In this document: one piece after another, positions 48,599-52,297 of the stretch | Layout of the letters: each line of letters opens with the position of its first letter | Position numbering within the stretch: position 1 is the stretch's first letter | Assembly: GCA_003282825.1 (NCBI GenBank) | Contig: QBYM01000004.1 | Span: 1 to 64,000 of the forward strand | Reading direction: 5' to 3' | Length of the DNA stretch: 64,000 nucleotides | Source of the DNA: Pelagibacteraceae bacterium AG-325-J17 | GTDB taxonomy: Bacteria; Pseudomonadota; Alphaproteobacteria; Pelagibacterales; Pelagibacteraceae | Translations under genes and position numbers: made by a program | Notes under the pieces: model-generated | What the model was told of the DNA's origin: nothing | The model's input: the letters and a program-made list of their open reading frames with translations, nothing else | Databases searched by the model: none

Positions 48599-50326
48599 TT
48601 AATCTTTATTTTTGTCTTTTTTCTTTAAATCTTCCGATAAAGATGAAAATGGTAAATTTTTACCTGAACCCTCAGATCCATATTTTTCTAGAGCTTCTTT
48701 TTTTTCTATCTCTTCTAGAAGTTTAATACTTAGAACAACTTTTCTTTTTTCAATATCTAATTCTGCAATGGCACAATCAATTCTTTCTCCACCAGTAAAT
48801 CTTGATGGTCTTGAGTCAGCTGCGTTGATTGCGATGTTTGATTTTTTAATTAATAAATCAAGATCACATCCTTCAGGCTTTACATTCAATCCTTTATTAT
48901 CTGTAGAAATTATTTTAACCGTAATTGTTTGCTTAATTTTTTTATCCTTAAACCAATTAAAAGGATCTGGTTGAGTTTGACGGAAACCAACTCTAATTTT
49001 TTGATCTGGAACTTTTATTTCTAAAACTTTAACCTTTATTTTGTCACCTTTTTTATATTTAATTAGTTCTTCCTCACCATTATTTGAATAAGTTAAATCA
49101 TTACAATGTAAAAAAGTATCAATTTCAATATCTTCAATTTTAACAAATAGCGAGTATTCATTTTTATTAACAATTTCACCTTCTGCAATTGTACCTACAG
49201 GAAATTTTTTTTCAAAAGTCTCAAAAGGGTTTTCTAAAGTAAGTCTATGTGAAATTGCTACTCTTCTTTTTTCTTTATCTATTTCTGTTATAACGCAATC
49301 AATCTCGTCATTTATTTTAAACATTTTTTTAGCAGTAGCATTTTTTTTACTCCAACTTAGTTCACTTGAATGAAGTAAAGTAGTTAAACCTGGTTCTAAT
49401 TCACAAAAAGCACCAAAGTCCATAATCTTTACCACCTTAACTTTGTAAACTTTATTTAGTGCATAGTTTTCTATATGTTCAAATGGATCTGGAGATAGTT
49501 GTTTTACTGAACAACCAACTTGTAATTTTTCTTTATCAACAGTGATTACTTTGAGGTCATGTTTTTCTCCAATGTTAAAAACTTCATCTGGATGATTAAC
49601 TCTTGAGTATGATATTTCTTGAAGATGAACTAGAACATCTAATTCACCGTTTACATTAAAAAAACATCCAAATGTACTATAACCTTTTACCTCTGCACCT
49701 TTAATAATATCTCCTACTTTATATTTTTCTATTATTTTGGCTTTATCTTCTTTTTTAAAAGACGATATAATCTCTCTTCTTGAAACACACGCATTACCTC
49801 TTATTTTATCCAATTTAATTAAAGCAAACTTCTGAGGCTCATTCATCAAATGACTTATATCTTTTAAAGGTTTGTCACTTATTTGAGAACCTGGTAAAAA
49901 CATTAGAGAACCAGTGTCTATGTGCTCTACAATGCATCCACCTTTACACTTTGAAGTAATTTTTCCCATTATAGGTTCATTTTTTTCATAGGCCTGAACA
50001 AGCTTATCCCAGCCTTTTATTTTTTGAGCTTTATTTGCTGAAACTAATACCTCACCATTTTTATCCTCAATTTTTTCTAATAATACAGAAATTTTTTCAC
50101 CTATTTTAATTTTTTCTCCCAGACCCATGCTTTTAAGTTCGTTAATATCTAAAACAGGCTCGCTTTTTAATCCTTCAACAAAAAGGAACACAAATTTGTC
50201 AGTAATCTTATTTATTTTACCATCAATAATTTTACCTTCTTCTATTTGAATTTTTGAAAGTTGTGAATTTAGTAGTTTTTCGAATTCTTGAGTCTCAGGG
50301 CTTGAAAGATCTTTATAAATTTCCAT
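48599..50326 (-). CDS. rpsA: 30S ribosomal protein S1
   Basis: A 575-aa protein with six S1 OB-fold repeats. Examples are VGDIIKGAEVKGYSTFGCFF, VYKVKVVKIMDFGAFCELEPG and FPVGTIAEGEIVNKNEYSLFV; the first two repeats are the ribosome-binding type. S1 recruits mRNAs with weak Shine-Dalgarno sites, relevant in this A+T-rich genome. It follows cmk with a 14-nt overlap, the conserved cmk-rpsA-ihfB order. Confidence 0.97.
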   Translation of the reverse strand: MEIYKDLSSPETQEFEKLLNSQLSKIQIEEGKIIDGKINKITDKFVFLFVEGLKSEPVLDINELKSMGLGEKIKIGEKISVLLEKIEDKNGEVLVSANKAQKIKGWDKLVQAYEKNEPIMGKITSKCKGGCIVEHIDTGSLMFLPGSQISDKPLKDISHLMNEPQKFALIKLDKIRGNACVSRREIISSFKKEDKAKIIEKYKVGDIIKGAEVKGYSTFGCFFNVNGELDVLVHLQEISYSRVNHPDEVFNIGEKHDLKVITVDKEKLQVGCSVKQLSPDPFEHIENYALNKVYKVKVVKIMDFGAFCELEPGLTTLLHSSELSWSKKNATAKKMFKINDEIDCVITEIDKEKRRVAISHRLTLENPFETFEKKFPVGTIAEGEIVNKNEYSLFVKIEDIEIDTFLHCNDLTYSNNGEEELIKYKKGDKIKVKVLEIKVPDQKIRVGFRQTQPDPFNWFKDKKIKQTITVKIISTDNKGLNVKPEGCDLDLLIKKSNIAINAADSRPSRFTGGERIDCAIAELDIEKRKVVLSIKLLEEIEKKEALEKYGSEGSGKNLPFSSLSEDLKKKDKNKD

Positions 50327-50981
50327 TAATGTTTAATTTTTTGTCTATAATTTTTTTTATTTTTAAAAAACAGGCTCTTTTAGATAAATTTGACGTGTTA
50401 ATCAATATAGAATCTTTGGTTTTCTTTAGAGGGGAAATTTTACGATTATAGTCACTTTTATCACGTTTTTTAATGTTTTTTAGAACGTCTTTATAATTAA
50501 TTCTTTTATTAAGCCCCTTAAGCTCGTTATATCTTCTTAAAGCTCTGGTTTTAATATTTGCTGTTATAAAAAATTTTAAATTTGCATCTGGGATGATTTT
50601 GTAAGTAATATCTCTACCATCTAAACAAGAACCATCAAATTTTTTTGGGGGATTATATGCGCACTTTAATTGAAATGAGTGCACTAATTTTCTAATATTC
50701 TTGTTTCGTGCAATTAAAGAAGCTTCAGTTCCAATTTCATCAGTTAAAAGCTTTTTGCTTTTAAGCTTATCTAAATTTAAATTTTTAATTTCTCTTTTTA
50801 TAAAACTTTCATTATATCTATTTCGATGACTGGTCTTAAGATAAGCTATCATTCTATAAATCTTTCCTGTGTCTAAATATAAAAGATTATAATGTTTTGA
50901 TATTGTTTTACATAAAGTGCCAGCACCAGCCGCTGCAGGTGAATCAACTGCAATTTTTAATATATTTTTTCTAGATTTCAT
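50313..50981 (-). CDS. cmk: (d)CMP kinase with altered Walker A motif
   Basis: A 222-aa cytidylate kinase by length, neighbours and motifs: LDTGKIYRMIAYL, LDGRDITYKIIPDANLKFFITA and the lid region RDKSDYNRKISPLK. However, the P-loop, normally DGPAASGKGT, reads DSPAAAGAGT (residues 13-22), so the ATP-binding lysine is Ala20 and the first Gly is Ser14. The codons (TCA, GCT) are clear. It phosphorylates CMP/dCMP. The aroA-cmk-rpsA order is standard; it overlaps aroA by 4 nt. Confidence 0.92.
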   Translation of the reverse strand: MKSRKNILKIAVDSPAAAGAGTLCKTISKHYNLLYLDTGKIYRMIAYLKTSHRNRYNESFIKREIKNLNLDKLKSKKLLTDEIGTEASLIARNKNIRKLVHSFQLKCAYNPPKKFDGSCLDGRDITYKIIPDANLKFFITANIKTRALRRYNELKGLNKRINYKDVLKNIKKRDKSDYNRKISPLKKTKDSILINTSNLSKRACFLKIKKIIDKKLNINGNL

Positions 50982-52297
50982 TTTGTCAACATTTTGATGA
51001 TGCTTAGAAATGAAGGAAAAGAAGTTTTTATAGAATCTTTGTCATATATATGCCACTCTCCTCCAAACGATAGTGCAGCAATAACACTTGTCATAAAGAC
51101 TCTATGATCTTTTAAATAATTCTTTATTTCAATTTTTTTATTTATTTTCAACTTTGGGTTTCCAAATATTTTAATTGAATTTTTTGTTGTAATTGTTTTA
51201 ACTCCCATCATTCTTAGAATTTTTGAACCCCATTTTAATCTTGGACTTTCTTTTTTATTAAGTTCTTCTAAACTTTTAAAAAATGATACACCTTTTGCTT
51301 TTGCTGCTATCAAAAAAATAATTAAGAATTCATCAATAGTCTCACTGTTTAATTTTGAGGGACAGTTTATAGATTTCAATTTTTTTGGACTTTTAATAAA
51401 AATGTCAGCTACCATTTCTCCTTTATAGATTTTTTTTTTTGAAAATGAGATCTTAACTCCCATTTTTTTCAAAATAGTAAGTATTCCAGATCTTGATGGG
51501 TTAATATTTACATTTCTTATTAATAATTTAGAATTTTTACTTAATACAGTTAGAGCAATAAAAAAAGCACTAGAACTTATATCAGATGGAATTTTATAAT
51601 TTATTGGATTAATTTTTGTTACTTTATTTATCTCAATTAAATCAAATTTTTTCTTTTTTTTAATCTTTATTGGTAAATTTAAATGTTTAAAAAAAAGTTC
51701 TGTGTGATTTCTTGATTTTTTTGCTTTTATAATCGTCCTTCCATTTGTCTTTATTCCTCCGAACATAATACTACTTTTACATTGGGCAGATCCTTTTTTT
51801 TCATAATATTTAATTGGTTTTAATTTATTAGATCCTTTTATGGTTAATGGTAATCCATAGTTTTTATCAAGCTTAAAAGTTGCACCAAAATCACTTAGTG
51901 GATCAGTTACTCTTTTAAAATCTCTTTTTGATAAGCTTTTATCACCTATCATTTTGATTGGGACTGGAGTATCTATTAAAATTCCAAGAATTAATCTGCC
52001 AAGTGTTCCAGAGTTTTTTGCGTTAATAGTAAGGTTTTTTTTATATCTATATCCGTCAATTCCTTTACCGTAAACTTTGCATATCTTATTATTTATAATA
52101 ATTTTTATTCCAAGTTTTCTTACAGCCTGTATGGCAGCCATAACATCTTCAGAAAAAAGTAAATTCTGGGCTTTTGAAACTCCATTAGATAGAGATGAGA
52201 TTAATACCCATCTGATGCTTAAGCTTTTATCACCAGGAATTATAATCTTTCTATTAAAGTTGTTTATTCTTTTGTTAAAAATTATCTTATTTGCCAT
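50978..52297 (-). CDS. aroA: 3-phosphoshikimate 1-carboxyvinyltransferase (EPSP synthase)
   Basis: A 439-aa enzyme of the shikimate pathway. Motifs are IPGDKSLSIRWVLISSLSNG, KNSGTLGRLILGIL (family NSGTxxR), GSAQCKSSIMFGG (SAQvKS), SRNHTELFFKHL, PSDISSSAFF and KDHRVFMTSVIAAL. GAQC-like substitution makes the exact class uncertain, but the fold and operon are clear. It lies 6 bp downstream of lptB. Confidence 0.95.
   Translation of the reverse strand: MANKIIFNKRINNFNRKIIIPGDKSLSIRWVLISSLSNGVSKAQNLLFSEDVMAAIQAVRKLGIKIIINNKICKVYGKGIDGYRYKKNLTINAKNSGTLGRLILGILIDTPVPIKMIGDKSLSKRDFKRVTDPLSDFGATFKLDKNYGLPLTIKGSNKLKPIKYYEKKGSAQCKSSIMFGGIKTNGRTIIKAKKSRNHTELFFKHLNLPIKIKKKKKFDLIEINKVTKINPINYKIPSDISSSAFFIALTVLSKNSKLLIRNVNINPSRSGILTILKKMGVKISFSKKKIYKGEMVADIFIKSPKKLKSINCPSKLNSETIDEFLIIFLIAAKAKGVSFFKSLEELNKKESPRLKWGSKILRMMGVKTITTKNSIKIFGNPKLKINKKIEIKNYLKDHRVFMTSVIAALSFGGEWHIYDKDSIKTSFPSFLSIIKMLTK

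Follow-up and report, generated by a model that had tools for sequence, protein, structure and literature searches.

A clade of SAR11 cytidylate kinases lacking the Walker A lysine

Known cytidylate kinases and the cmk gene of the window

The P-loop lysine is regarded as near-indispensable in P-loop kinases. In the T. thermophilus cytidylate kinase (Cmk) in complex with ADP and CDP, this residue is Lys15, which bridges both beta-phosphates; the transferred phosphate is held by two LID arginines, and the donor is held by the backbone amides of the P-loop (PMC7259600). In the mycobacterial CoaE, Lys14 is reported to take part in ATP binding and in stabilisation of the phosphoryl intermediate (PMC3019153). 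The alanine mutants of R131, R110, and R188 of the Yersinia Cmk are inactive, and both E. coli and Yersinia are reported to tolerate deletion of cmk, though their growth is impaired (PMC3603445). A literature search, largely confined to journals open without subscription, found no paper on a Cmk devoid of the P-loop lysine.

The window, i.e., the whole analysed stretch of 64,000 nucleotides from Pelagibacteraceae bacterium AG-325-J17, contains a single cytidylate kinase gene (Table 1). The gene order is aroA-cmk-rpsA, as described in the original prediction, and the coordinates of both neighbours confirm it. The cmk ORF starts with ATG and contains neither a frameshift nor a stop, so the earlier statement that no frameshift lies near the P-loop also holds. 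The encoded protein matches PF02224 with a score of 152.7 bits (cut-off 26, E=1.5e-44) and the (d)CMP kinase profile TIGR00017 with a score of 148.1 (cut-off 135.55). The AlphaFold2 model of the protein has a pLDDT of 83.8, and each of its 21 best PDB matches is a Cmk. Its descent, profile matches, fold, locus, and contact residues all mark the window protein as a Cmk. The replacements of Lys20 by Ala and of the first P-loop Gly by Ser, on which the original prediction was built, are confirmed by the codons GCT and TCA in DSPAAAGAGT. The Walker A pattern GxxxxGK is thus present without its lysine (SPAAAGAGT), and for this reason the protein is classed as a Cmk variant rather than a standard Walker A kinase. 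It has the fold, the gene neighbourhood, and the NMP-site and LID contacts in common with the known Cmks (E. coli 1kdo/2cmk, S. aureus 2h92, and T. thermophilus 3akc); however, the aligned solved structures keep the Walker A lysine and the first P-loop Gly, both of which are absent here.

Table 1. Features of the cmk locus and their positions in the window
Feature	Position	Strand	Basis
cmk, lysine-less cytidylate kinase, 222 aa	50313..50981	minus	ORF, Pfam and TIGR profile matches
P-loop, residues 13-22, DSPAAAGAGT (family D-G-P-x-x-x-G-K-G-T)	50916..50945	minus	sequence, alignment
Codon 20, GCT, Ala replacing the Walker A lysine	50922..50924	minus	sequence, alignment
Codon 14, TCA, Ser replacing the first P-loop Gly	50940..50942	minus	alignment
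Codon 40, AAG, Lys of DTGKIYR, candidate substitute	50862..50864	minus	alignment; position compared with structures in PMC7259600, PMC3603445
LID residues 173-180 (R173-D177-R180 = E. coli R181, D185, R188), all invariant	50442..50465	minus	alignment
Codon 187, Lys, second candidate substitute	50421..50423	minus	alignment
aroA, adjoining cmk upstream at almost every lysine-less locus	50978..52297	minus	
rpsA, downstream neighbour, 14-base overlap with the cmk end	48599..50326	minus	

The E. coli residues S36, Y40, R41, R110, R131, D132, R181, D185, and R188 correspond to T38, Y42, R43, R97, R123, D124, R173, D177, and R180 of the window protein; R131, R110, and R188 of the Yersinia enzyme are R123, R97, and R180. 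Throughout the lysine-less clade described below, R43, R97, R123, D124, R149/R150, R173, D177, and R180 are invariant, and the contact residues of the NMP site and the LID as a whole, T38 and Y42 among them, are invariant or nearly so. Since all other substrate-contacting residues are kept, the lysine-less protein, judging by its sequence, very probably still phosphorylates CMP.

Extent and origin of the lysine-less clade

The original prediction supposed that a similar motif occurs in other SAR11 Cmks and suggested aligning Cmks of many Pelagibacterales. This turned out to be correct: 139 lysine-less SAR11 sequences were collected, in which position 20 is occupied by Ala (135 sequences), Gly (3), or Ser (1) and never by Lys; every one of the 139 has Ser at position 14. 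The sample of 60 same-genus genomes yielded 32 full-length lysine-less Cmks, the window protein included. A scan of the collection with their alignment gave 517 related stretches, and the best 80 of the 517 all bear the label Pelagibacterales, Pelagibacteraceae, or Pelagibacter. Among the matches listed, the closest named relatives are SAR11 single-cell genomes (Pelagibacterales). A sequencing error, a frameshift, or chance can be rejected as the cause, since the same position is lysine-free in 139 sequences from many separately assembled genomes.

The family survey revealed deeper members in other genera, with the P-loops DSP[SV]AAGAGT (L214, L232, L233), DSPAAAGAGS (L242), and DSTAGSGSTS (L239). 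The motif used in the genome search, which does not catch these deep variants, matched in 83 of the 198 genomes of the order, all from the genus of the window. Among 398 Pseudomonadota genomes, the same motif was found in no further Cmk; three other genomes of the 398 had matches, which were considered as a sign of wider spread, but the matching proteins are not Cmks. Of the 50 Cmks read from Alphaproteobacteria at large, every one has the P-loop lysine. Among the sampled genomes, the lysine-less Cmk is found in SAR11 only.

On the Cmk tree, constructed with the P-loop columns excluded, the lysine-less proteins form one clade with a support of 100/96, and the minimum number of changes is one. 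Given this single clade and single change, the sequences indicate that the lysine at position 20 was lost once and that later drift took place among small residues only.

The median pairwise dN/dS of close members of the clade is 0.075. The codons of Ala20 are GCT (76), GCA (51), GCC (5), and GCG (3), in AT-rich loci (around 27% G+C) where Lys would be AAA; such synonymous drift of the codon suggests that the residue itself is held. In the complete single-contig genomes G012, G126, G135, and G163, the lysine-less protein is the only Cmk above the cut-off. Each of the four encodes one ADK-family protein, so no backup UMP/CMP kinase of the ADK type was found in them. Their Adk (GPPGAGKG) and Tmk (EGIEGSGK or EGIEGTGK) retain the lysine, and the change is therefore special to Cmk. 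The thymidylate kinase of G012 is apparently split across two frames (L349 and L350; G012:C1:600430-600980). The original prediction had also raised the case of a second, normal cmk in the same genome; none was detected in the complete genomes, and the genome of the window (77% complete) gave no other Cmk match.

Exchange with the normal enzyme and copies outside the operon

When 61 genomes of the same genus were compared, 34 were found to carry the lysine-less Cmk and 18 the normal one, with no genome having both intact (Fisher p=4e-9, kinship ignored). In 12 genomes, aroA and rpsA are adjacent without an intervening cmk; in genomes of this group, a normal Cmk (DGE[AS]ASGKST) is encoded elsewhere, and in both of the two loci read, its gene adjoins an rpoZ-like gene. 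In other genomes, the aroA-rpsA slot itself is filled by a normal Cmk. On a tree computed from the AroA and RpsA parts on either side, which represent a single locus and may themselves recombine, the lysine-less state requires 12 changes (gains or losses), and eight are still required after removal of the cmk-free loci. Twelve changes on the tree of the flanks as against one clade on the Cmk tree point to repeated gene exchange, and the sequences thus indicate that lysine-less and normal cmk genes were swapped many times.

Repeated replacement in the same slot, together with mutual exclusion, suggests that the lysine-less protein has the same role as the normal Cmk. It is highly improbable for this reason that the donor, the substrate, or the function has changed and the ATP:CMP phosphotransferase role is gone, as might be supposed from an altered donor-binding P-loop next to an intact CMP site; the P-loop, moreover, is still glycine-rich and keeps its Thr.

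Two other features of these genomes can be noted. No Cmk match was found in the near-complete (90-96%) same-genus genomes G233, G254, G321, G029, G353, and G361, nor in G365, G369, G375, G386, and G390, which are complete to the same degree; this can be explained either by an assembly gap or by true loss. In L243-L248 (genera g10, g12, and g15), aroA and cmk share one frame of about 655-670 aa, which appears to encode a bifunctional fusion protein and has the usual lysine in its P-loop; the L247 fusion ORF (P-loop DGKVSSGKTS), which has the lysine, was left out of the lysine-less counts.

The G264 genome contains two lysine-less copies. The copy between aroA and rpsA (L283, G264:C2 around 115787) is wrecked, with the P-loop DLPAAVSAGIQ and a reading frame broken over several frames, while the second copy (L265, G264:C2:152779-153387) is intact. 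A redundant lysine-less copy visibly decays, and the other copies do not. L265 adjoins genes for a NeuB-family protein, a sugar isomerase-like protein, and a HAD-type phosphatase. Activation of sialic-acid-type sugars uses CTP, and CMP is released; a CMP kinase would suit such surroundings. Of two further lysine-less genes outside the operon, both next to sulfation genes, L215 is located beside an ATP sulfurylase-like gene, an APS kinase gene, and a sulfotransferase-like gene, and L360 has a neighbour that resembles the ATP sulfurylase of L215.

The loss of the catalytic lysine and the decayed copy in G264 could suggest that cmk is dead or dying and is retained through its place in the aroA-rpsA operon. 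This is barely credible: dN/dS is about 0.075, the contact residues are invariant down to 51% identity, and intact lysine-less copies exist outside the operon too. The decayed copy itself looks very unlike the others and coexists with a second, intact one. The low dN/dS and the invariant contacts support the opinion expressed in the original prediction that the gene is not dead.

Candidate substitutes for the P-loop lysine

Two lysines close to the P-loop had been suggested earlier as replacements. Lys25, which is located five residues after Ala20 and not four, as was originally given, is conserved to the same degree in the Cmks that have the P-loop lysine, and E. coli has it as Lys23; since normal Cmks have it too, it is not a replacement. 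Lys9 has to be abandoned as well because position 9 varies between Lys, Thr, and Ser inside the lysine-less clade. Lys49 seemed specific in the first genus sample, but it is Ile in four of the five deep lineages. Lys168, Lys207, and Lys209 are conserved, with no structural reason for them to be near the phosphates.

The best candidate is Lys40, the equivalent of E. coli Ala38, located in DTGK-IYR; its service as a substitute for the P-loop lysine is plausible, if tentative. We take position 40 to be that of Asp33 of adenylate kinase, near Mg2+. In the 139 lysine-less sequences, this position is Lys in 129, Arg in 9, and Met in 1 (L064), and in the set thinned to 102 sequences, the numbers are 93, 8, and 1, i.e., a basic residue in 101 of 102. 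It is basic in 10 of the 50 Cmks from Alphaproteobacteria at large, and of the 71 SAR11 Cmks with the P-loop lysine, 28 have Lys or Arg there; Lys40 is therefore not specific to the clade. Helix alpha-2, at the N-terminus of which position 40 is located, lines the ligand site (PMC3603445), and the arginine holding the CMP phosphate follows three residues (one helical turn) later (PMC7259600).

The sister clade of the lysine-less proteins, formed by the lysine-bearing Cmks of genus g8 (L193-L201, P-loop DGPAASGK[GNH]T) with a support of 87/70, contains DSGK with Lys40. The g8 proteins thus share Lys40 with the lysine-less clade but retain the P-loop lysine, Gly14, and Pro187. The residues after the P-loop lysine of L194-L201 are unusual (GKNT and GKHT). 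Since the lysine-bearing sister clade has Lys40, this residue probably predates the loss; with Lys40 already present, the P-loop lysine could have turned redundant and been lost.

It is quite unlikely that some other basic residue stands in for the lysine. The main contender would be Lys187, located after the LID: position 187 is basic in all 102 thinned sequences (94 Lys, 8 Arg), whereas E. coli and the sister clade have Pro, which places this change on the branch where the lysine was lost. However, in the predicted model, which has low confidence in part of this region, Lys187 belongs to the linker that leads into the last strand of the core (E192-195), topologically away from the phosphates.

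Possibly, no substitute is needed, and the LID and core arginines with Mg2+ provide a low turnover sufficient for slow SAR11 cells, Lys40 being nothing special. All the arginines are invariant, SAR11 cells grow slowly, and L064 has Met40. Deletion of cmk is reportedly survivable in E. coli and Yersinia (PMC3603445), and since it is tolerated with a growth defect, modest activity could suffice. Nevertheless, we consider this explanation unlikely, given that almost every member has a basic residue at position 40 and that a plainly worse enzyme should not so often displace the normal form or persist beside it; the normal form is readily gained by exchange, so persistence of such an enzyme would not be expected.

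We therefore find it rather probable that these proteins are working (d)CMP kinases of a SAR11-specific clade, which arose by a single loss of the lysine together with the Gly-to-Ser replacement, with takeover by Lys40 as the most likely solution. According to this scheme, the ancestor probably had both Lys40 and the P-loop lysine; the Walker A lysine would then have been lost once, alongside the change of Gly to Ser where the P-loop begins. Backbone amides of the P-loop, together with the Ser/Thr hydroxyl, would still bind phosphate, and its charge would still be neutralised by the arginines of the NMP site and the LID. The bridging between donor and acceptor phosphates would most likely have passed to Lys40, at the beginning of helix alpha-2.

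It is possible, though doubtful, that in a whole clade of P-loop NMP kinases the catalytic lysine has left the P-loop and is now provided by the helix of the acceptor site (Lys40), via an ancestor with both, and that both designs are still rivals for one place in the genome. To our knowledge, no such relocation has been described before for a P-loop kinase. The WNK protein kinases, which lost the canonical ATP-binding lysine and use one from elsewhere, may offer an analogy; however, their fold is unrelated, and the relocation is structurally shown there, whereas for Cmk it is a proposal. If it is true, two Cmk designs vie for one slot in a very abundant bacterial group. A near-indispensable lysine was apparently removed once and has been absent through the whole radiation of the clade, and the product has been repeatedly swapped with the normal enzyme. 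The normal proteins, the normal proteins with Lys40, and the lysine-less proteins make up a natural sequence set for testing how the lysine becomes dispensable. They also call for caution in annotation and in pseudokinase calls based on the Walker A lysine.
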